Positions 2,006 through 16,842 of a stretch of 48,029 nt of DNA are shown one piece after another. The DNA is taken from positions 1 through 48,029 of the forward strand of contig WGAY01000042.1 in assembly GCA_015494585.1 (NCBI GenBank), read 5' to 3'. Position numbers and translations under genes: made by a program. This DNA is from Candidatus Omnitrophota bacterium (GTDB lineage Bacteria; Omnitrophota; Gorgyraeia; S143-82). How positions within the stretch are numbered: the stretch's first letter is position 1; the number at the start of each line of letters is the position of its first letter. Below the pieces are notes generated by a model. That model saw only the letters and a list, made by a program, of their open reading frames with translations, did no database searches and had not been told where the DNA came from.

Positions 2006-5000
2006 TTACTCATCGTCTGTAACCAGGACATCTCCCTGTGAATCCATCACCGTCGCCGTAACGAAGATTAAGAGATTTCTCCTGTTTATACTATCAGTCT
2101 GTTTCTTAAACAAAGTCCCAAGCACAGGGATATCTCCCAGAAGTGGAACCTTGGTTAAGACCTTTGTTCGACTTTCCCTAATAAGTCCACCCAGTACAAC
2201 TGTATCCTGGTTATCCACCACAACATTTGTATTAAGATTACGAGAGGTAAATTTCGGTAATTTTACTCCACCTGTATACTCAAAATAATCAGCCACTGCA
2301 TCGCTTACCTCTGGAATGAGGCTGAGACTGATGGTCTTCATATCATCACCAACGCTAGGGGTTACATTGAGGATTATACCAATATCCCTCTTTATAAAGT
2401 CCGTAGGCACATTTTCATAACGGGTCTCACCGGCATCGTCATAATCCCCATCCCCATTAAGGTCGAACTGTACGATCTGAAATTCATATCTGGTAGGATA
2501 TATCCACTCATCCACAACCTTAATAGTCGCAGGCTGGTTATTCAAGGTGGTTACGCGCGGTGAAGACAGGGTACGTGTATTCTGACTCTGTTCAAGTGCA
2601 TGCAATACCGCCTCAAATTGAGGCTTTGTCAAAACTCCTTTATAGGTAAGGTTGAGGCCACTTGTGGCATTGGTGAAATCAGAAAAATTGACCCCACTAT
2701 TTTGGGCAAATCCCTGGGAGAATTGTCCCCCTTTTACATCTGTTGCCCAGTCTTCATTTGCTATCTTCCATTCAACCCCTAACTCAGAAAGGTCAGTAAT
2801 GTCCACCTCCAGAAATTTGGCCTCTATCAAGACCTGTACAGGTGCTACATCTAGATTCCAGAGTATCTCATCTATCTTTTTTATATTTGCAGGCGTGTTT
2901 GTAACTATCAATGTACCAGTACGTTCATCTAGGACCAGTTTGCTCCCAGAAGGCCAGTCGACTGCCTCTTCTAATATATCTTTTAGGGTCTTGACCTCGC
3001 TTACAGAGGCCCCACTGCCTAATTCCACACTACCTGAAGTGGAGTTGGAAAATTTGGTGTAAAGCCCTATTCCCTTGCTTAGATGATATACCTTGGTCTC
3101 AACTGGTTCCTTTTCCAGTTGATCCGGGGTAGTAATCCAGACGGCATCTTCGTCTATCTGGTATGTAAGATTATATGATTTCAAGAGATATTTCAGGGCA
3201 CTTTCCAGGGCCATATCTTTTACGTCTATGCTGACATTATACTCTTTAGAGAGGACAGAAGCAGAAGGTATGATATTAACTCCTGTTTGCTCAGCAAAAA
3301 ACTTCAGGACATCCACCAAAGGAACATCTTCAAAATTTGCACTAATCTTCTGCTGGAGTTTCTTCTTTATAGGAGGGAGATTCAATATTCTGCGCCTTTC
3401 CCTTTCCTCTTTCTTTATCTTCTTTGTCTTTAATGCGGTTGGAACTATCCCATCCTTCATCACATCCTTATACATCTTTTTGTCTTGTTCATCTAACTTT
3501 TTTTGTAATCTTTGTTTGTCGCGTGCAAAGATCTTTTCCTTCACGGCAAACAATTTTTGCTTGGCAATAGAATCATTGGGAAACAAAAATAGGATATTCT
3601 CATACACGGCTGCGGCAGATTCCAGCTTACCATCTCTCTCCAGTTTTTTGGCATCTTGATAGAGCTTATCCACAATTTTGTCTTTTAATTCCTGCGTCTC
3701 CTTTTCCCTATTTAATGCCTTTATATCCTTTTCCCTTTCCTTTATCAGGTCCAAATACTCACGAGCATATGGACTGTAATAAGAAATCTTGGCATCTTTT
3801 TCCCTGGAGATTACTTGAGAAAACAACTCTCGTGATTTGAGATAATTGCCAGAATTATAGGCTGTCTTTGCCTTTTCATAGACTTCTCGAATAGTTGGAT
3901 ATAATTTTTCCTCTATTTTTATCTGGTCTTGCTGGACTTGCTGCTCCCTTTTAAGCAGCATACGAGCTCTCTCTGCTAGTTTCTCAGCTTTGCTGTTTTC
4001 AGGATCTATTTCTAGTATATCTTCCGTTATATTCAAGACCTCCCCGTAATTGCCTTCGTAGAGATTTTCCTTTGCCTTTTCAATCATCTCTCGAATCAAG
4101 GTCTTTTTATTACTGCCATCATTTAACGCATCTATTCGCGCAATCCTTAAAGATTCCAAACGTTTTTCTATAAGTTTCCTTTTCTTCTCTTTCTCCTTTG
4201 CTACCACACGCTCTATCGAAGCAAGACGATCTTTAAAGGTCTCTATTTTCCTCTTCTGTCTAGGATTCATAAACTCTATATCCTGAGAAAGTGCCTTTAA
4301 TTTATCCTTTACCAAGGCAATCCTATCCCAGTTCTTCTCGGCTATCTTTAAAATAGATTCCAACTCGTTAAGTTTCAAATCAATTTCTCTTTCCTTCTGA
4401 ATACTGGATAGTGTCCATATCTCCTTTTTGACCTTTTCATCCAAAGAATCCATTCCATAAGAAAAGACTCTAGCCTTTGCGAGCATCTCTCTCTGCATCT
4501 CGTCCATCATGTGTTCGCGCGCTAGTCTATACTCTTCTTCCTTTTTTCTCCTTTCTGCTTCAAGCCTATCAAAATAGTCCTTTCTAGCCTTAACTATACG
4601 CCTCTTTAAAAGTTGGGCCTGTTTATTCTCTGGCTCTAATTGCAAGATTCTTTTAACGGCCTTCATTGCTGGAGAATACTTGCCTTTTTCAAGATAGTTA
4701 CTTGCCTCATTAAATAGAGCTGCAAGATATGCTTCATACTGCTCTTTGCCTTTGTTTTCTACATAGGCCCCTACTCTAGAAGATATATCCTTAATAACAT
4801 TCCTCCTAGCCTTGGCCTTTGTTTCAATAAACTTATCCAGCTGTGCCAAAGTCCATCTATGTTTCTCATCTAGGACATCCATTTGGGCATCAGATAGTCT
4901 CCTTATCTCCTTTGCAATCTTTGCATCCAAATCCTTATCGGGCTGTAATCTGCTCGCCAACCTTTCCACCTCTCTTTCTACCTTCTTCATAAAAGACTTA

Positions 5001-8000
5001 TGCTGTGCCTCCGCCAGTTTGTATTGCCTGTATTGCTGCTCAGATTTGTCCCGAATATACTTTTTGACCTCTGATGTTAAATCTATAAAACCATCCCTGT
5101 TTGCCTTTGCCTTGCCTTTTAGAAATTCATCCAGCTGTGCCAAAGTCCATCTATGTTTCTCATCTAAGACATCCATTTGGGCATCAGATAGTCTCCTTAT
5201 CTCCTTTACAATCTTTGCATCCAATGCATCATCGGGGCTCAGTCTCCTAGCCAACCTGTTTACTTCCTTTTCTACCTTCTTCATAAAGGCCTTGTGCTTA
5301 CTTTTTGCCAGTATATATTTCCTATATTGATCCCTGGCCTTACGAGACACAAAGCTTTTCACCTTTTTGTCTAATGCGTCATTAGAGAATAGCCTTGCCT
5401 GTTTCTTTAAAAAAGCATTCAATTTCTCCAGTGTCCATTTATGTTTCTTTTCTAGAAAACTGTATTGTTCCTCTGACTTTCGAGAAATATAATCGGCAAC
5501 TTTTGCATCCAATCCTGCACTGCGACTAAATAAGGAACCTTTTTCCTTAATCTCTCTATCTACCTGAGCCATTAATGTACTTTTCTCTTTTATTCCCTTG
5601 CGATAATCACTACCTAAATTTTTTGTCTTTTTAACAATCTTGTTGGTTGTCTCACCTGACTTTTCAACTTTATTACTCAACAATTTATGATTGTCCGACG
5701 TCTGTTTAGCTATTTTACCCTTCACCGTTTGTCTTAAAACAGTCTCGCTCGACTTCAGTGCTTGTTCTTTAGCTTCTTTCTTGTCTATTTCCTCTTGCAT
5801 AAGTAATATCAAATCTAGCAAATCTTTAGCTGTCTGATTATCAGGATCGTATTCCAATACTTTTTTACATAGCGCAACGGCCCTATCAAACTTTTGTTCA
5901 TCTAATAGACGCTGGGCCTGCAATAAAAGGCCTTCTATATCCGCTCCAAGCAAACCTTTCTGATACTCATACTCTTTATTCACATGATTCATTGTACGCA
6001 CGGCATTGGAAATTCTTCTCTTCTCTGCTGCATCATGTTCTATCTGATACAACAGTGACTTTTTTCTCCGTATCTCTGACTGCCATCTTTCCCTTGCCCT
6101 TCTATACAGGTCCATTAATTCCTGGTTCTTTGAATTAAGTCGCAGGCCCTCTCGTGCAAGTAGAAGCGCACTTTGATAGTCCCCAGCCCTTAATGCGCGA
6201 ATTCCCTGAGTAAGTTTTAAATCAGCATAGTATAAATTTTCGGCCTTCTCTATCTGCTTCAAAAAGCGTTTTGCTTCTTTGTTATCCCTATCTATATTAC
6301 GCAATATATCCTTAACAACAATCTTAGCACTGACAAAATCACTGTTTTGCAAATATATCTGAGCTGTCTTTAAGGCCTGCTGAACCTTATAAAACCTTAA
6401 TCTTTCTTCCATTTGATCCAAAATACTACGAAGCTTAGCGTTATCCTGACTGTCCTGCACAAATTGTCTTGCTGTATCTAGTTCCTTTCTAGCAGTGGAA
6501 AAATCATATATTTTCAGTGCACTTTTTGCCAATTCTATATGCTTATAAAAATTATATTTCTGTCGTATCCTCACTATCTTTTTTTTACAGAGAGCAAACT
6601 TAGACTTTATATCATCGGGAATAAAATTCATCAACTTCATATAAGCGTCTATTTTATTCAGATCCTCTTCCTCAACCGCACGGCACAGTTTTTTAAACAC
6701 TTCATGATAGTAATCCAGCTGCTGCTTTTCCTGAAAAGCCAATACCTGTTCATCCAGCTTACGCATATCAGTTGCAATTTTTTGTATCTCTTTCCTCATT
6801 TCTTCCAGAGTACGCTTATGTGCTATCTTATACAATTTTTCCTTTCTTTCCTCTTCTTTGAACCGATCCATAGCCTTTTCATATAACCTTTGAATGCGAG
6901 TATCACCCGGGAAATGACGTTTTGCATTTTTTGCTATACTTAAAGCCTTGCGCAGGTTTTCCAATCCACCTTTTTCCAACAAGGCTGTTATTTGGCCCAC
7001 ATAAGGCTTCACCAGAAGGCCTTTAAGGGTCTCTCTTAACTTCAGTAGAGTTTTTCTTTTATCCGGATATATCCTCATTAATTTCTTTATCTTCTCATCT
7101 GCCAAGATATATTCTCTATCCTCTAACAACTTATTTATCTCATCTACAGCTTTATCAAACTCAAAATCGTATTTTGCCTGTTTAACTTTTGTTAAATATT
7201 CCTTAATATAATTGTTATCTGGGTACAATCTAGATAATCTACTCAATAAATCAATAGCCTTATCGAATTCTCTTTTATCTAGATAAGCAGATACCTCTTT
7301 TATTTTGTTGTTGATGTACTCTCTTTCTCGTTGTTTCTCTTCTTCCTTTATCTTTTGTAGGCTTGACTCCAATCCAGCAAGGCTTCTCTTACCTTTGTTT
7401 GTAGGAATTACTAGCTCAGGTAAAGACTCTTCTTTTTTAGTAGTGGTTGTGGCGGTCTTTGCCACATTCGACACCTTATTTTTTGAGGGAATAGACAAAG
7501 ACTTTTCTGACGCTATCAATTTCACAAGTCTCTTGGCTGGAACAAAGCCGGGATCAATTTTCAATACCTCTCTAGCTAGTTTAAGGGCCTTGTCCATATC
7601 TCCCGCATAATAAGCATCTTGGGCATTATAGAAAATATTTAAACGCTCTATCTTTTTTCGCTTCTCCTCAAGTAATTTCTTTTCCCTTTCCTTTATACGT
7701 GCCCTTGCTTCAGCCAACAAAGCCTCAGCTTCTCTGGCATATTTACCACCCATGGAATCTTCTTTTATAACTTCAAGAAACCTTTCAATTGCATCTTCAT
7801 ACTGTCCTTTTCTATAGAATCGTTTACCCTGTTTTAATAATCTCGCCAATCTTCTACCATTGGTTCTTTCCTTAACATGTTTACTCTGTTCGGACCTTAT
7901 ATCCCTACTGCTAAAATTTTTCACAGGTTTGGCAGCTAGAGCCGTCTCTTTTTGCTTTTTATTAGGAAAAGACTCCCTCAATTCGCGTGTAGTTGCCTCC

Positions 8001-9007
8001 ACTATCGCGGTTGCCTTCCTTTGCCGTCCTGATTCTATCCTCTTTTCCCTCCCAATCGCCTCTTCGATCTTCTTAAGTTCATCCTCTAGTGCCTTCCTCA
8101 ATAAAAGTTCCTTGCGAAGTTTATCTCTCAAAGCCCTTTCTTCAGAAGTCAACTCATTATATCTCTCATCCAGCTGTGAGAGATCCTCTAAAGAAACACT
8201 TTCCCCTGTTCTTTCAGAAAGAGATCCCATCAATCTATTTTCCAGGAGTAAGATCTCCTCATTTATCCTTGCTATCTGGGTTTGTAACTTCAACCTCTCT
8301 GTAGAGAAATCATTGACCAGCTGCTCCTGTTCCTTTATTCTTTCCTCTAATTCACGGACCTGCTTCTCCTTTTCTTCTAGATACTTCCTCATTAAGAAGT
8401 CTTGTTGGTCCTTTATCTCCTTCAATTGGGATAGATATCGACTTATTCCTTCCTGGAGTGATAAAACTGCCACCTTAAATCTGGTTTTTAATAATTCGCT
8501 ATCTTGCGTAATCTTGTCTATATCGGGAGAGCTTTTTTCTTTAGACACGTAAACAGCAGATGTGTCCTGATTACTTCCCCCACTAACCAACAATGCCCTC
8601 GACTTTTCCAAGTATCTTTTCGCATACTGATGATTAGGCATATATTTCAAAACCCTACTAAAACACTCTACTGCTGTCGCATAATCCTGAGCCAAAAATG
8701 CCTGTTTGCCTTGCATATAAAGTGACTCTATATCTACTGAAGACTTATTCGGAGAAATGGAAACAGCAAGCTTTCTATCTATATCCAATAGATATCTTTT
8801 GGCTGTCTCATTAGAAGGGTCTTTCTTAAGTGCTAGTTCAAAGAAAGACTTTGCCTTTACCAACTCCCCACGATTATAGTAATCCTCTGCCTTAGACAGA
8901 TAATCCGCATCAGAATTATTAAATTCATAAGAAAAAACACATACAGGAGATATAAAAAACAATAATAACCCTAGCCCCCAAAAGAGCTTTCTCCAAGCTA
9001 TTTTCAC
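2006..9007 (-). CDS. Giant secretin (PilQ/GspD-type outer-membrane channel) with TPR and coiled-coil N-terminal region
   Basis: A 2,333-residue protein; secretins are usually 400-900 residues. An N-terminal signal peptide (MKIAWRKLFWGLGLLLFFIS) is followed by two TPR units (~33-135), a long coiled coil (~195-330), and then roughly ten more TPR-like motifs alternating with charged helical stretches (examples GQYEDAIERFLEVIKED, QKFDRAVALCKKVLEYDPDN, GNYGEVLNITEDILEIDPEN) to ~1,830. Residues ~1,190-1,420 contain a 98-residue repeat (core LSDAQMDVLDEKHRWTLAQL). The C-terminus is a complete secretin: STN/N0 domain (~1,885-1,955), Secretin_N (~1,960-2,060), and the secretin core (~2,130-2,320) with SSPRVTTLNNQPATI and VPLLGDIPVLGTLF. 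A calcium-loop-like insert DLNGDGDYDD sits at ~2,182. ATG 9007 overlaps the previous stop by four bases (ATGA), so it is translationally coupled to the PilP/GspC-like gene. It should form the outer-membrane gate of the pilus/secretion system; the TPR region probably spans or organises the periplasm (inference). Confidence 0.93.
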   Translation of the reverse strand: MKIAWRKLFWGLGLLLFFISPVCVFSYEFNNSDADYLSKAEDYYNRGELVKAKSFFELALKKDPSNETAKRYLLDIDRKLAVSISPNKSSVDIESLYMQGKQAFLAQDYATAVECFSRVLKYMPNHQYAKRYLEKSRALLVSGGSNQDTSAVYVSKEKSSPDIDKITQDSELLKTRFKVAVLSLQEGISRYLSQLKEIKDQQDFLMRKYLEEKEKQVRELEERIKEQEQLVNDFSTERLKLQTQIARINEEILLLENRLMGSLSERTGESVSLEDLSQLDERYNELTSEERALRDKLRKELLLRKALEDELKKIEEAIGREKRIESGRQRKATAIVEATTRELRESFPNKKQKETALAAKPVKNFSSRDIRSEQSKHVKERTNGRRLARLLKQGKRFYRKGQYEDAIERFLEVIKEDSMGGKYAREAEALLAEARARIKEREKKLLEEKRKKIERLNIFYNAQDAYYAGDMDKALKLAREVLKIDPGFVPAKRLVKLIASEKSLSIPSKNKVSNVAKTATTTTKKEESLPELVIPTNKGKRSLAGLESSLQKIKEEEKQREREYINNKIKEVSAYLDKREFDKAIDLLSRLSRLYPDNNYIKEYLTKVKQAKYDFEFDKAVDEINKLLEDREYILADEKIKKLMRIYPDKRKTLLKLRETLKGLLVKPYVGQITALLEKGGLENLRKALSIAKNAKRHFPGDTRIQRLYEKAMDRFKEEERKEKLYKIAHKRTLEEMRKEIQKIATDMRKLDEQVLAFQEKQQLDYYHEVFKKLCRAVEEEDLNKIDAYMKLMNFIPDDIKSKFALCKKKIVRIRQKYNFYKHIELAKSALKIYDFSTARKELDTARQFVQDSQDNAKLRSILDQMEERLRFYKVQQALKTAQIYLQNSDFVSAKIVVKDILRNIDRDNKEAKRFLKQIEKAENLYYADLKLTQGIRALRAGDYQSALLLAREGLRLNSKNQELMDLYRRARERWQSEIRRKKSLLYQIEHDAAEKRRISNAVRTMNHVNKEYEYQKGLLGADIEGLLLQAQRLLDEQKFDRAVALCKKVLEYDPDNQTAKDLLDLILLMQEEIDKKEAKEQALKSSETVLRQTVKGKIAKQTSDNHKLLSNKVEKSGETTNKIVKKTKNLGSDYRKGIKEKSTLMAQVDREIKEKGSLFSRSAGLDAKVADYISRKSEEQYSFLEKKHKWTLEKLNAFLKKQARLFSNDALDKKVKSFVSRKARDQYRKYILAKSKHKAFMKKVEKEVNRLARRLSPDDALDAKIVKEIRRLSDAQMDVLDEKHRWTLAQLDEFLKGKAKANRDGFIDLTSEVKKYIRDKSEQQYRQYKLAEAQHKSFMKKVEREVERLASRLQPDKDLDAKIAKEIRRLSDAQMDVLDEKHRWTLAQLDKFIETKAKARRNVIKDISSRVGAYVENKGKEQYEAYLAALFNEASNYLEKGKYSPAMKAVKRILQLEPENKQAQLLKRRIVKARKDYFDRLEAERRKKEEEYRLAREHMMDEMQREMLAKARVFSYGMDSLDEKVKKEIWTLSSIQKEREIDLKLNELESILKIAEKNWDRIALVKDKLKALSQDIEFMNPRQKRKIETFKDRLASIERVVAKEKEKKRKLIEKRLESLRIARIDALNDGSNKKTLIREMIEKAKENLYEGNYGEVLNITEDILEIDPENSKAEKLAERARMLLKREQQVQQDQIKIEEKLYPTIREVYEKAKTAYNSGNYLKSRELFSQVISREKDAKISYYSPYAREYLDLIKEREKDIKALNREKETQELKDKIVDKLYQDAKKLERDGKLESAAAVYENILFLFPNDSIAKQKLFAVKEKIFARDKQRLQKKLDEQDKKMYKDVMKDGIVPTALKTKKIKKEERERRRILNLPPIKKKLQQKISANFEDVPLVDVLKFFAEQTGVNIIPSASVLSKEYNVSIDVKDMALESALKYLLKSYNLTYQIDEDAVWITTPDQLEKEPVETKVYHLSKGIGLYTKFSNSTSGSVELGSGASVSEVKTLKDILEEAVDWPSGSKLVLDERTGTLIVTNTPANIKKIDEILWNLDVAPVQVLIEAKFLEVDITDLSELGVEWKIANEDWATDVKGGQFSQGFAQNSGVNFSDFTNATSGLNLTYKGVLTKPQFEAVLHALEQSQNTRTLSSPRVTTLNNQPATIKVVDEWIYPTRYEFQIVQFDLNGDGDYDDAGETRYENVPTDFIKRDIGIILNVTPSVGDDMKTISLSLIPEVSDAVADYFEYTGGVKLPKFTSRNLNTNVVVDNQDTVVLGGLIRESRTKVLTKVPLLGDIPVLGTLFKKQTDSINRRNLLIFVTATVMDSQGDVLVTDDE
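4835..4930. repeat. 96-bp near-identical direct repeat, copy 1 (within secretin gene)
   Basis: This copy matches 5129-5224 at 94 of 96 positions. The offset is 294 bases (98 codons), in frame. It encodes about residues 1,360-1,391 of the giant secretin, core AQMDVLDEKHRWTLAQL. Confidence 0.95.
5129..5224. repeat. 96-bp near-identical direct repeat, copy 2 (within secretin gene)
   Basis: Second copy of the repeat at 4835-4930, encoding about residues 1,262-1,293. A third, diverged protein-level copy (KHKWTLEKLNAFLKKQ) lies further towards the N-terminus. The DNA identity is higher than in the flanking repeat sequence, which suggests recent duplication or gene conversion. Confidence 0.95.
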
Positions 9008-9492
9008 TTAGACCCCCCAACTTTCAATGTAATCAGAGACAATCCCCCTTCTTTAGATAATACAACTGTATCCTCTGTTATGTCAAGGACCTTATACCCT
9101 TCCACAAAATCTCCCAATTTTAAAAACTTAGTCTTTTTGCTTTCTATCACATAGATAATAGCAACCTTATCCCCACCCCAGTCCATCATACCCTTATATA
9201 CAAACAAACCTTGCGCTTCTTGAGCTGTCTTTTTGGTTTCAACATCTACTTTCTCTACACCTACTTCCACTTCCTTTATTGGGACAAAAAATGGATTCCT
9301 CAAAGGAACCGAATAAATCTTATCAGAGACTACTAACTGCGGAACAGTTATAGGGATATAGCTGCAATTAAAATCTATTCTAGGTAAGGGATACCTTGAC
9401 ATTTCTATCAAACCTAAGAAAGTTCCTATAAAGATTAGGATATTCGCCGTGGATATCCAGCTATATTTTTTTATCGGTCTCAGCGGCTGCAT
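9004..9492 (-). CDS. PilP/GspC-like inner-membrane pilus/secretion protein
   Basis: A 162-residue protein with one N-terminal TM segment (~13-33, ANILIFIGTFLGLIEM) and a C-terminal beta domain (~90-158). The pattern KTKFLKLGDFVEGYKVLDITED followed by TVVLSKEGG is typical of the PilP / GspC homology-region fold. These proteins link the inner-membrane PilMNO (or GspLM) platform to the periplasmic N0 domain of the secretin, and the secretin gene follows directly with an ATGA overlap. It overlaps the upstream PilO-like gene by 32 bases. The PilP versus GspC assignment is not resolvable: PilP is usually a lipoprotein, and no lipobox is present here, which leans towards GspC topology. Confidence 0.75.
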   Translation of the reverse strand: MQPLRPIKKYSWISTANILIFIGTFLGLIEMSRYPLPRIDFNCSYIPITVPQLVVSDKIYSVPLRNPFFVPIKEVEVGVEKVDVETKKTAQEAQGLFVYKGMMDWGGDKVAIIYVIESKKTKFLKLGDFVEGYKVLDITEDTVVLSKEGGLSLITLKVGGSK

Positions 9493-10183
9493 TTTTTCTG
9501 GTCCTTAGTTTTCTTTCCAAATGCCCAACCATATCTGGATCTATTTTTATCGATAAGTTTATGAAAGGCCTATCATTCGAAACAACCTCCAATCCTTCAA
9601 TTAAAATAATAGGCTTGCGTTGCAAACTCTTTACAATCGCCAAAAGTCCCTTGAAATCTGTCATAATATCCATTACCATTAGATGGCGCCTTTCACTAAA
9701 ATCGAAGGAAACCTTATTTAGAGAGGTGTTTTTACCATCCACTACTTCCAACACACGTTTTATGGCCTCTAAATTATAAAGCAAGTATGCAATATCTGCT
9801 TCATCTGGCATCGCCACTGGAAATCCCAAATTCTCTGGAATTTTTTTATCTTTATATCTATCCACCACTGCCCTAACACTGCGCATAAAAAATAGGCCTG
9901 GAGAATCTTTATCCTTAGTGATTTCCCTTAAATCAGATAATAGCAATACCTGAGATTTAATATTGGAGCGTTCCTGTTCTACATCTGACAAATTCTCCTG
10001 TAATTTTTCAACAACATCCTCTGGCGAACATCCCCAATACTTTGACTTTGTACCTTCAAATCTTGACAGAGATATATTTAACCGCATATGCATATTGTAA
10101 GAGAAACCCACCAAAAATAACGAAAACAAAACTAAAACCAAGAAACCACCTTCCAATGTCCAGAATAAAACACTCCTTTTCAT
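9461..10183 (-). CDS. PilO-like pilus alignment-complex protein
   Basis: A 240-residue bitopic protein: short cytoplasmic N-terminus, one TM (~8-28, TLEGGFLVLVLFSLFLVGFS), a coiled-coil stretch (~58-85, VVEKLQENLSDVEQERSNIK), then an alpha/beta domain. This is PilO/GspM topology, and it sits exactly where PilO belongs: after PilM-PilN and before the PilP-like gene. The segment DFKGLLAIVKSLQRKPIILIEGLEV (about 180-205) matches the ferredoxin-like core found in PilO-type proteins. The primary sequence is divergent, so the call rests heavily on topology and gene order. It starts 4 bases inside the end of the PilM-PilN gene and overlaps the next gene by 32 bases. Confidence 0.7.
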   Translation of the reverse strand: MKRSVLFWTLEGGFLVLVLFSLFLVGFSYNMHMRLNISLSRFEGTKSKYWGCSPEDVVEKLQENLSDVEQERSNIKSQVLLLSDLREITKDKDSPGLFFMRSVRAVVDRYKDKKIPENLGFPVAMPDEADIAYLLYNLEAIKRVLEVVDGKNTSLNKVSFDFSERRHLMVMDIMTDFKGLLAIVKSLQRKPIILIEGLEVVSNDRPFINLSIKIDPDMVGHLERKLRTRKNAAAETDKKI

Positions 10184-11625
10184 TTTTCAAGCACCAATAA
10201 CATAGTTACTTTGTTATCAGAATCATATCTAGAATTTACTGCAGAAACTTTAGAAAATCTGCCGCTTTTCCTCAAATTTATTAACAAATCATTCAGATTA
10301 TCATAATTATCAGAAACTATTTGCAGAGAAAAAACCAACTGTTCAGCCTTATCTTGACCATCTTCTAATAATTTCGCTGAGACTGAAGATACAACCACTG
10401 AATCTAAGGATTCCATACAACTAGACAATATAGTAAAAAATTCCGGATAGAAATACTGAAGTGACATGGTCTTATTAAACAAAGATAATTCATTTACTAG
10501 TTCATCTCTCTTCTTCTTTAATCTAATCACCTTCCTTTTTATATTTTTGTAATCGGTAAGTTGAGTATTTACATACCCAATCAAATTCTTCACAGGAATT
10601 ATATCTTTTATACTCAGATATCCTGCACCAGAAATAAGTGAAAAGAGCAAAATAGATTGAAGCACATTATAAAAAATAGGTATGCGATACTCTATTTTTG
10701 ACTCAATGGGAATAATCCCATTTAATGTATTGAATTTATCTTTAGAAAACATCACGGCCAATCCAAAAGCCAATGCAAATTTTTCAATAGATCTAGTCTC
10801 GATTGACTGTTGGCGTAAAATAGACTCTACCGGGAAAGGTGTAGGCCTTAGGCCTAATTCCTTTTCAAAGAGCGCATCCCATTCTTCTTCTGGTTTGATA
10901 TCATCATTCACAAATAGATAAATCGCATCTATATCTTGACTTAATACTACATCACCTATTCTCCCCGAAAACTTTGCAAAATAGGATTCCAATAATTCCT
11001 TAATATCCCAAATCAAACTAACATTTCCATAACCTCTAGGCAATGTCCTTATCCAATCTCTCGAAGAATCTTCACCAATTATGATCAAATCCGTAAACCC
11101 ATGCGTACAAAGCAAGGCTATAGAAACCTTCTCTTTCTGGCGAATAGGCGTGGAAAATTCTAGCAACCTTATCAGATTATAGAAAGCAATGCTATAAGGT
11201 GTTATTCCCGAAGGAGAAGAAAGAGCACCATCCATTTTGGCGATCCATCTATCGACGACTTCCTCTCTAGCAGCAAAAATCAGTGCCTCTCGTTCTACAT
11301 CTCCATCCGTTCCTGTATCCAACAGATCGTAACTCCAATAAACTGAATGTTTGGGGAATGGAATATTTTTATCATATTCAAAATCTACTGCAAAGTCACA
11401 ATTCACACCCTCAGGGCAAAGCAACCGTACCTGCTTCATGAAAAACATATTACTTGGTAGGACTACATAAACAGGATATTGAGGTTTCCACAAATAGGCA
11501 TCTTCTAATGGAAGAGAGAAAGATTTTGTTACTTCTAGACTTCCATCGTTATCAAGTCTACATTCTAATATACCAAGCTCAGCACAGCAAACCTGTACTG
11601 CATAAAAACGGAATGTATAGGCCAC
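10180..11625 (-). CDS. PilM-PilN fusion (GspL-like) pilus platform protein
   Basis: A 481-residue protein with a cytoplasmic actin-like half (~1-300, including VSIALLCTHGFTDLIII and a second subdomain ending FALAFGLAVMF), a TM segment (~325-345, NVLQSILLFSLISGAGYLSI), a coiled coil (~355-385) and a PilN/GspL-like periplasmic ferredoxin fold. In most type IV pilus systems PilM and PilN are separate proteins; the joined order resembles GspL of type II secretion. It would anchor the ATPase-proximal platform. The start is GTG 11625, after GGGGGGT; a -10 box lies at 11647-11652 between it and RNase P RNA. It begins an overlapping four-gene series ending in the secretin. Confidence 0.78.
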   Translation of the reverse strand: MAYTFRFYAVQVCCAELGILECRLDNDGSLEVTKSFSLPLEDAYLWKPQYPVYVVLPSNMFFMKQVRLLCPEGVNCDFAVDFEYDKNIPFPKHSVYWSYDLLDTGTDGDVEREALIFAAREEVVDRWIAKMDGALSSPSGITPYSIAFYNLIRLLEFSTPIRQKEKVSIALLCTHGFTDLIIIGEDSSRDWIRTLPRGYGNVSLIWDIKELLESYFAKFSGRIGDVVLSQDIDAIYLFVNDDIKPEEEWDALFEKELGLRPTPFPVESILRQQSIETRSIEKFALAFGLAVMFSKDKFNTLNGIIPIESKIEYRIPIFYNVLQSILLFSLISGAGYLSIKDIIPVKNLIGYVNTQLTDYKNIKRKVIRLKKKRDELVNELSLFNKTMSLQYFYPEFFTILSSCMESLDSVVVSSVSAKLLEDGQDKAEQLVFSLQIVSDNYDNLNDLLINLRKSGRFSKVSAVNSRYDSDNKVTMLLVLEK

Positions 11626-14652: not shown

Positions 14653-14967
14653 TTATAGCACAAACTTTTCTGCCAGGCTATCAATTCCCATCAACCTGCC
14701 TGTCTCTCCTGCCAGGGCAGATATCATACCAAAGACAGATAAAAGTCCAAATACCAATCTGGCCAGTACAGTAAACACAATTCCAATTACGGGTAGGGCA
14801 GAGATCGTCCAGATCAATGCCTCGAGTATAAACAGTACCAATCCTCTCTTAGCATGATAACGAATAAACTCATCTTCCTTTGCGTGAAAGGCCGACCATA
14901 TACTCAACGGGCCAAGATAGGCAAGCATAGCATATAATTTCGATTCTAGCTTTACAAAGTTTTCCAT
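14653..14967 (-). CDS. DUF4870-like small membrane protein
   Basis: A 104-residue protein with three hydrophobic segments (~10-27, ~41-62, ~65-86) and the family pattern of a small hydrophilic loop FHAKEDEFIRYHAKRGLVLF, resembling DUF4870/Tic20-like proteins in which the FxxxHxxR(Q/G) motif follows the first TM. The function is unknown. It is 11 bases downstream of the ParA fusion gene and is the last gene before a clear terminator, so it belongs to that operon. Confidence 0.75.
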   Translation of the reverse strand: MENFVKLESKLYAMLAYLGPLSIWSAFHAKEDEFIRYHAKRGLVLFILEALIWTISALPVIGIVFTVLARLVFGLLSVFGMISALAGETGRLMGIDSLAEKFVL

Positions 14968-14978
14968 AACACGCCCCC

Positions 14979-16094
14979 CTAACCTATGTTAAGCAGAGAA
15001 TCCAGCTCCCCATAGGGATTCTTTTCCTTCAAAGGATTATTTGGATCATCTACCCATTTACCATCTACCACAAACCTATACCTATATCTTCCAGGTGGTA
15101 AATTAATAGTCTTTACCCATACGCCATTCCTTTTTTCCAATTTTGCCTCATCACCCAAACGCCAGGCATTGAAATCACCTGCCACAAAGACCTCTTTAGC
15201 TTGTGGATCAGGAAATACAAACTCGACAATCCTTTCAGGCATATCACGACCTATATCCATACTCTTCTGCATTGATCTGGTTTCAATCCTATTCTCTGGT
15301 TTCCAATCACTATCCAGAGGTCTCGGTGGCTCTACCCTTGACAATAACTCCCTTGCCAGTGCAAGGTAATCCTTTGCACCTCTACAGTATTTATCATAGA
15401 AAAGGGCAGGTTTCCCATGACTAGCAGCTTCTCTTAATTTGACATTTATATGTATGATGGTCTTTGCAACCTTATCACCAAATCTTTCCCTTATAGAGTC
15501 CTGTACATGATAAGAATACTGAAGACGAGAATCAAACATAGTCATAAGTATACGATAATCCACATTATGATTCAGCCTCTCCCTTACCAGATTTATAATG
15601 TCCAAGAGCTGATTTACACCATTAAATGAAAAGAAGCTCATCTCTATAGGGATAAAGACTTCATTGGCTGCCCTTAATGCATTAACCGTCAAAAATCCAA
15701 GGTTCGGTGGACAATCTATTATCACATAATTGTAATCGGACTCCATCCTGGAAAGCACATCCCAGAGACGAGTTTCTCTCCCAATCTCATCCGCTAGTTC
15801 CTGCTCGAGAGTACTTAACAATATTCCAGAAGGGGCCAAATATAAATTTGGGCTTACCTCCTTTACAATCGCATCTATAGAGGCCCTGGCCTGAGAAAGA
15901 GACGAAAGGACATCATAAATGGAAAATTCCAAACTATCTGGATTAATTCCTAATCCCGTAGTTGCATGGGCCTGCGGATCGAAATCCACCACCAGAACCT
16001 TCTTTCCCATATGGGCAAGAGATGCCGCTAGATTTATGGTAGTCGTCGTCTTACCACATCCCCCCTTTTGATTGGCAATCGCCATCACATACAT
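14979..16094 (-). CDS. ParA/Soj-type ATPase fused to a C-terminal glycogen-binding (AMPK-beta/CBM48) domain
   Basis: A 371-residue protein. Residues 1-250 are a complete ParA/MinD-type ATPase: deviant Walker A KGGCGKTT with signature Lys10 and Lys15, Walker A' VVDFDPQAHATTGLG (~35-49), Walker B VIIDCPPNLG (~124-133). After a linker (~255-280) comes a beta-sandwich (~286-371) matching the AMPK-beta glycogen-binding module: AGDFNAW (Trp311), LPPGRYRYRFVVDGKWVDD (Trp347), NPYG. Both tryptophans that contact sugar in AMPK-beta are present; the sugar-contacting Lys is Arg here. ParA ATPases position chromosomes, plasmids or protein cargo on the nucleoid. No ParB gene is adjacent. The start is secure, with GGAGGGGG 6 bases upstream. 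The fusion suggests cargo containing alpha-glucan (inference), or the domain may be used for protein contacts only. Confidence 0.9.
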   Translation of the reverse strand: MYVMAIANQKGGCGKTTTTINLAASLAHMGKKVLVVDFDPQAHATTGLGINPDSLEFSIYDVLSSLSQARASIDAIVKEVSPNLYLAPSGILLSTLEQELADEIGRETRLWDVLSRMESDYNYVIIDCPPNLGFLTVNALRAANEVFIPIEMSFFSFNGVNQLLDIINLVRERLNHNVDYRILMTMFDSRLQYSYHVQDSIRERFGDKVAKTIIHINVKLREAASHGKPALFYDKYCRGAKDYLALARELLSRVEPPRPLDSDWKPENRIETRSMQKSMDIGRDMPERIVEFVFPDPQAKEVFVAGDFNAWRLGDEAKLEKRNGVWVKTINLPPGRYRYRFVVDGKWVDDPNNPLKEKNPYGELDSLLNIG

Positions 16095-16122: not shown

Positions 16123-16761
16123 TTAAGTGCCCTCTATAAATCTTACCTTATCTATATAGATAGTACCCTTTGGGATAGAAACATTCCATTTATCAACGAT
16201 AAAACCTATCCTCTCTACATTATTCCACGACGTTATTTTAGGGACTTGATCAAGAGGTATTACAATCTCTTTCCAACCAGAATCTATTGAAGGTATCCCT
16301 ATTTCTCCTATTTCCCTGAAATTATTAACAAACTCCAGGCGTATACTATGATTCTTGCCAGAAGAAAAACGTACATCAAAGGCCAAGGCCTTAAATTTGG
16401 ATACATCCGCGCCTTTAAGAGAAAGATAATACTTCACAACTCCATTTGCCTGAGGATCAGAGAAATCAAAAGAAATCGCAACAGGCATCTTGTCGGATGC
16501 TACCAATAAAGATTCATTTGAAGCCTTGTCATGAAGCGGTGTGCCAGAATTATACAACATCCCACTCTTCCAACCCAGGATTAGTAGCAGAATCAAAACA
16601 ATATTTATCCCCAAAAGCAAGAGGTTAATATTAAAATATCTACCCACTATAGCTAATATCCTATTCCTCTCCAAAGGTCTTTGCTCTTTGTTAGTAAAAT
16701 AGGTGCGTGCTATTATATCAGCCACCCTTTTATTACCCATTGTATTTTTTTTATAACACAT
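16123..16761 (-). CDS. Membrane-anchored beta-sandwich protein (CBM11/CIA30-like fold), unknown role
   Basis: About 212 residues: a charged cytoplasmic N-terminus (~40 residues), one TM (~45-65, LLLLGINIVLILLLILGW) and an extracytoplasmic domain (~90-210). That domain has the galactose-binding-like pattern KALAFDVRFSSG, SGWKEIVIPLDQVPKI, and GTIYIDKVRF at the end, seen in CBM11- and CIA30-type domains. No enzyme motif is visible. The start is ambiguous: GTG 16767, ATG 16761 or ATG 16740; 16761 is chosen because AGGTGG lies just upstream. It is 28 bases upstream of the ParA-glycogen-binding gene, so two neighbours carry carbohydrate-binding-like folds. Confidence 0.6.
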   Translation of the reverse strand: MCYKKNTMGNKRVADIIARTYFTNKEQRPLERNRILAIVGRYFNINLLLLGINIVLILLLILGWKSGMLYNSGTPLHDKASNESLLVASDKMPVAISFDFSDPQANGVVKYYLSLKGADVSKFKALAFDVRFSSGKNHSIRLEFVNNFREIGEIGIPSIDSGWKEIVIPLDQVPKITSWNNVERIGFIVDKWNVSIPKGTIYIDKVRFIEGT

Positions 16762-16842
16762 AACCACCTAAGAGTCAATGGATTATATTTCAAATTGGAC
16801 CTTTATCATCAAAAAATCTAGCATCCTAATTGTCATAAAAGA

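Follow-up and report, generated by a model that had tools for sequence, protein, structure and literature searches.

Background

ParA/MinD ATPases place DNA, carboxysomes, chemoreceptors and flagella in the cell. Among described systems, the closest to the protein presented here are the Soj/ParA ATPases of chromosomal ParABS, such as those of H. pylori and T. thermophilus, with which it shares the fold, the signature lysine of the deviant Walker A motif and the catalytic aspartate. It departs from them in carrying an additional C-terminal CBM48 domain, in the replacement of the core DNA-contact lysine or arginine, in an invariant basic residue two positions past the equivalent of K230, and in having no ParB neighbour. 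The McdA-McdB system likewise dedicates a ParA-type ATPase to a carbon-related cargo and links its gene to that of a partner, as is seen here, where activation by the partner is predicted; McdB, however, is a cargo adaptor, whereas in the fusion it is the ATPase that bears a cargo-type domain, and its partner often sits anchored in the membrane. The domain is of the same sequence type as the CBM48 of the AMPK beta-subunit and shares its contact residues, two tryptophans and a basic one, but it is attached to a ParA ATPase and is not part of a kinase. In BcsQ, too, a ParA/MinD-type ATPase is tied to a polysaccharide system, that of cellulose synthesis, although BcsQ has no carbohydrate-binding domain, lies among different neighbours, and sets an NCBIfam cut-off far above the score of the fusion. 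The phasins of PHB and polyphosphate granules (PhaM, PhaF and AlgP) share the theme of storage-granule positioning but show no homology to ParA; their contact with DNA is made by domains that are histone-like or similar (PMC13052382). Glycogen goes unnamed in a 2025 review of how bacteria position their organelles, which deals with carboxysomes, magnetosomes, PHB and polyphosphate.

Here we present ParA-CBM48, a ParA-type ATPase fused to a glycogen-binding domain, encoded in a 48,029-nucleotide stretch of DNA (the window) from a Candidatus Omnitrophota bacterium. Because this motor-type ATPase carries a glycogen-binding domain and lies beside a probable activating-partner gene, the locus suggests that the cell has a machine, as yet undescribed, for placing or tethering its stored glucan; no description of the fusion or of the partner pair was found in the literature searched, which lay mostly outside subscription journals and preprints. 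If this is true, a ParA with its own glucan-binding domain would mean that bacterial carbon stores can be actively placed or inherited, it would show a link to cargo that needs no adaptor, and a conserved pair of proteins in a large phylum, most of which is uncultivated, would gain a likely role.

The fusion protein

An earlier note on this DNA had proposed that intact ParA motifs and an AMPK-beta/CBM48-like module lie in one frame, and they do. The gene (14979-16094, minus strand, ATG start) is a single open reading frame of 371 codons for amino acids, in which a Soj-type ParA core (residues 1-256; 15327-16094, minus strand) is joined by a disordered linker (residues 257-287; 15234-15326, minus strand) to a CBM48/AMPK-beta-type glycogen-binding domain (residues 288-371; 14982-15233, minus strand). 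The deviant Walker A motif KGGCGKTT occupies residues 10-17 (16044-16067, minus strand), where K10, G11, G12, G14, K15, T16 and T17 are invariant among homologues, and VVDFDPQ follows at residues 35-41. In Pfam, AAA_31 matches residues 2-178 (E=2e-57) and AMPK1_CBM (PF16561) matches residues 298-368 (E=1.7e-14, 54 bits against a cut-off of 26.8), with a further match to CBM_48 at E=2.7e-5. Searches with the sequence only paired residues 3-253 with ParA/Soj chains and residues 299-369 with AMPK-beta glycogen-binding domains, and in a profile comparison the tail matched AMPK-beta2 crystal structures at E=6e-14.

The predicted structure agrees with this layout. Two confident domains, with pLDDT mostly above 90, flank a linker whose residues 262-285 fall below 50, and the region around residues 280-371, whose fold the earlier note had singled out for checking, is modelled as a confident beta-sandwich at 288-370. 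The core superimposes on Soj/ParA structures with target-normalised TM-scores of 0.93-0.95, reaching 0.95 and 1.2 A rmsd for one Soj chain. By fold and motif the protein is a ParA/Soj ATPase, and by sequence its tail is an AMPK-beta-type CBM48. Linker length varies greatly among homologues: at three loci (L069, L071 and L068) it grows from about 25 to more than 100 residues and is charged and of low complexity.

Conservation of the glucan and ATPase sites

Conservation was counted over 67 distinct ParA-CBM48 homologues. The two tryptophans named earlier as sugar-contacting, W311 and W347, align with W100 and W133 of AMPK-beta; the first is invariant (67/67) and the position of the second is tryptophan in 66 of the 67. 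The position of AMPK-beta K126 holds arginine or lysine in 59 homologues and glutamine in the other 8, phenylalanine or tyrosine fills the L146 position in 65, and aspartate or asparagine the N150 position in 66, while the T148 position shows no conservation in this set. On the ATPase side, the signature lysine K10 and the aspartate D39 are kept in all 66 sequences that could be read there. Since contact and catalytic residues are kept across the homologues, these proteins appear to have a working glucan site and a working ATPase site.

Domains of the E-set/CBM48-like kind are sometimes without sugar binding, and loci with no glucan genes nearby are common in this family, so that the tail might be a protein-binding module unrelated to sugar, by which some other cargo is positioned. 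We consider this improbable, for both stacking tryptophans, together with a basic residue or glutamine at the K126 position, persist in nearly all 67 divergent sequences, and the linkage to GH57 genes described below also speaks against it.

The DNA-binding surface tells a different story from the ATPase site. In H. pylori Soj (HpSoj), K227 is the core DNA-contact residue (PMC11229316). Its equivalent is arginine or lysine in the canonical comparators and non-basic in every member of the fusion family, mostly isoleucine, valine or phenylalanine. Elsewhere in the HpSoj basic patch (K199, K227, K230 and K247) the K230 equivalent is mostly retained, and two positions past it, at the equivalent of position 232, lysine or arginine is invariant in the family. 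DNA binding may then be altered or lost; being the usual basis of ParA positioning, it is uncertain for ParA-CBM48 because the K227 equivalent is non-basic throughout, and a nucleoid-based ratchet cannot be assumed, since the residue central to nucleoid contact in HpSoj is gone in every member.

The same residue bears on the idea that this is an ordinary DNA-partition ParA that gained a domain by chance. Its Soj-type fold is what such a protein would have, but the loss of the core DNA-contact residue, the presence of a canonical ParA-ParB pair at another place in the genome, a distinct clade and the absence of an adjoining parB in the window make this reading very improbable, and on the last three grounds we rejected a role in plasmid or chromosome partition. 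The genome's only match to ParB_N lies on another contig beside its own ParA, in keeping with the earlier remark that no parB is adjacent. Membership of BcsQ was rejected as well (76.7 bits against an NCBIfam equivalog cut-off of 157.85), and no bcs gene was identified at the locus.

Distribution and origin of the fusion

The fusion was sought in a sample of 285 Omnitrophota genomes, and full-length two-domain matches were found in many families. A profile search returned ParA-CBM48 in 196 of the 285 at E<=1e-85. Ten weaker or unusual matches were inspected; two proved to be ParA without CBM48 (the matches in G002 and G273) and in one the gene is broken by stops. Because this inspection struck out false matches, about 190 of 285 is a fair estimate, and the two-domain architecture that the earlier note had suggested looking for elsewhere is found not only in these genomes but also in Phycisphaerae (Planctomycetota) and in Candidatus Auribacter (Auribacterota). 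Recurring at this frequency in the phylum, ParA-CBM48 is no local oddity or chance joining. Candidate fusions also occur in single Zixibacteria and Rokubacteria bins, where the Walker-motif pattern was not recognised.

In a tree of the ParA cores, 64 fusions separate from 7 canonical ParA rows on a branch with 100/100 support, and the fusion clade joins proteins of Omnitrophota, Auribacter and Phycisphaerae. This split from canonical ParA fits one origin of the fusion.

Two oddities met in this survey can be recorded here. A 2641-aa reading frame that takes in ParA (L153) arises from masked bases and is not genuine. In genome G111 (L158:1492-2265) stop codons interrupt the fusion gene, and a motif-like partner gene persists upstream.

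A probable partner encoded next door

Directly upstream of the fusion, at 16123-16767 on the minus strand, lies the gene for a predicted partner, a single-pass membrane protein with a cytosolic N-terminal motif and an extracytoplasmic CBM11-like beta-sandwich. The earlier note's description of a membrane-anchored CBM11-like fold holds: the best PDB matches of the beta-sandwich are CBM11 structures 1v0a and 6r31 (1v0a at E=1.1e-7), a relation at the level of fold and not of family membership, as the window's protein has no Pfam match. In the phylum as a whole, parA-CBM48 is directly preceded by the partner gene in 97 of 99 full-length cases, with a median gap of 28 bp, and in the remaining two the partner is on another contig. 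Many Omnitrophota also encode several further proteins per genome with the partner's CBM11-like domain and without the N-terminal motif region, so that the domain makes up an uncharacterised extracytoplasmic family.

The cytosolic motif VADIIARTYFTN (residues 15-26; 16690-16725, minus strand) is a predicted ParA-interaction helix, and residues 12-24 are helical in the AF2 model, at low pLDDT. Its pattern is [LI]Axx[YF][LF], seen as VADIIARTYF in the window and as IYEHLAKIYL or TQERLAETYF elsewhere. A search of 760 open reading frames from the examined loci for the motif followed by a transmembrane segment gave 26 matches, all 26 of which are the gene directly upstream of parA-CBM48, including proteins whose other parts share no BLAST similarity. 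The core motif occurs in 30 of 58 upstream and 9 of 58 downstream same-strand neighbours against 7 of 791 other genes; since the motif was first spotted by eye within the same data, p-values attached to it are descriptive. A motif matrix derived from one set was applied to loci of another scan, and in 13 of these, drawn in part from the same genomes, the upstream gene scored highest.

In Phycisphaerae, Auribacter and deep Omnitrophota, where the membrane partner is missing, it is the downstream gene that often opens with a motif of equal core spacing (GKGLEDISYLFLSS, RNLREISHFFLSE and GRGISSIAHHFLSN). Some of the downstream motifs (GKGLEDI, GRGISSI and VRGLKDL) resemble ParB N-termini, for example GRGLASL of the ParB in the window's own genome. 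Residues 1-10 of H. pylori ParB bind the HpParA dimer, and N-terminal lysine and arginine residues are required for the stimulation of its ATPase (PMC11229316). The likeness of the downstream motifs to the ParA-activating N-terminus of ParB is a lead and does not establish membership. Among ten downstream proteins scanned, two were weakly similar to MinD-like proteins (CbiA, E=4e-4 and 0.04). No motif gene was detected beside the fusion in the f7 loci, some f2 loci and many Phycisphaerae.

Because a conserved cytosolic N-terminal motif occurs almost only beside ParA-CBM48, the neighbour looks like a ParA-activating partner, and the system probably has such a partner, encoded next door. On this point the earlier note is not supported: it had supposed that the ATPase could work without an adaptor, and the adjoining gene carries a motif such as a ParA-activating partner would have. 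A third component is possibly the small DUF4870/Tic20-like membrane protein encoded directly downstream of the fusion (14653-14967, minus strand), which has a sub-threshold match to DUF4870 and is a conserved neighbour, present in 13 of the examined loci.

The extracytoplasmic placement predicted for the CBM11-like domain is not readily squared with a role confined to the cytosol, and it leads to the second of the rivals in rank, that ParA-CBM48 localises an envelope polysaccharide machine in the manner of BcsQ for cellulose: CBM48 would bind either a glucan in the making or an enzyme that handles glucan, and, beyond the inner membrane, the CBM11-like domain would work on a glycan that has been exported. 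BcsQ is structurally similar to the ParA core, and genes of an outer-membrane Alginate_exp-like porin cluster occur in 19 of the examined loci. The porin gene, however, is not always within the same gene run, the locus has no conserved gene for a synthase or an exporter, and GH57 enzymes, as a family, work on alpha-glucans, usually in the cytosol; we regard this reading as unlikely.

Alpha-glucan gene context

GH57 enzymes act on alpha-glucan substrates. In 52 genomes, drawn from 7 families, a GH57 gene oriented like the fusion lies 0.9-3.9 kb upstream of it. A representative (L034) matches PF03065 (E=4.5e-69), and its alignment to solved GH57 structures spans almost the whole protein. The window has no GH57 gene upstream of the fusion, its place being filled in the window's own genus by a uvrD-like gene; the genome as a whole encodes three GH57 enzymes and a glycogen synthase, and gave no match to the GT35 glycogen phosphorylase. 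Glycogen synthase (GT5) is found in 269 of the 285 Omnitrophota genomes. The fusion is present in 3 of the 16 genomes without a GT5 match and in about 191 of the 269 with one (Fisher p=4e-5, kinship ignored), and this co-occurrence is weak evidence because the synthase is nearly universal in the phylum. The alpha-glucan link proposed earlier is supported by the conserved CBM residues, the GH57 linkage and the prevalence of glycogen synthase. One GT5 gene (L168:8666-10402, genome G000, contig C64) comes after the ATP synthase genes, and its product is extended at the N-terminus by a long stretch rich in lysine.

The same context nourishes the main rival to a positioning role, a glucan sensor, in which CBM48 would report the abundance of glycogen and the ATPase would toggle the membrane partner or the GH57 enzymes, a scheme comparable to the activation of MinD-like tyrosine kinases by the tails of membrane adaptors. 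AMPK-beta, the nearest relative of the CBM48 tail, acts as a glycogen sensor (PMC2642990); the operon shared with a GH57 enzyme and the cytosolic peptide borne by the membrane partner are also what a sensor might use. The fusion has no kinase, HTH or other output domain, however, and its core is Soj-type, of a family used for spatial organisation; a sensor is a possible reading that we hold to be rather doubtful.

Proposed mechanism

For ParA-CBM48 itself we prefer, at about an even chance, an ATP-switched tether or positioner for glucan, most likely glycogen, worked by the peptide of the partner. The ParA half would dimerise on ATP, so that the dimer presents two CBM48 domains, and these would grip the alpha-glucan directly, making the ATPase its own cargo adaptor. 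The short N-terminal peptide of the partner would then dock on the ParA dimer and probably trigger ATP hydrolysis and release, as ParB and McdB do. The two-domain architecture, its origin in a single clade, the kept sugar-contact and ATPase residues, the linked partner with its motif and the GH57 linkage are results of computation; glucan binding, the interaction between peptide and ATPase, the identity of the cargo, the dynamics and the positioning are inferred. That glycogen granules are the cargo, and that they are positioned or partitioned, is likewise a reading of this kind.

Since the partner has its anchor in the inner membrane in the window's genome and the large clade around it, glycogen would there be held, spaced or released relative to the envelope. 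A soluble protein would bear the same short peptide in Phycisphaerae, Auribacter and deep Omnitrophota, in some cases one like a degenerate MinD. Candidates for the second surface on which the system would work are the nucleoid, the membrane partner or the glucan itself. A broader proposal, which we put forward tentatively and at somewhat less than an even chance, is that Omnitrophota, Auribacterota and Phycisphaerae share a new and ancient class of ParA, a glucan-binding ATPase triggered by a ParB-like N-terminal peptide on interchangeable membrane-anchored or soluble partners, for which the cargo would be glycogen and not DNA, with the ratchet possibly using glycogen as its matrix too.

Elsewhere in the window, a gene at 2006-9007 on the minus strand encodes a 2333-aa protein in which, by reading of the sequence, many TPR-like and coiled stretches precede a C-terminal secretin-like region; this would be an unusually large secretin fusion, in line with the pilM/N/O-like genes at 9004-11625.
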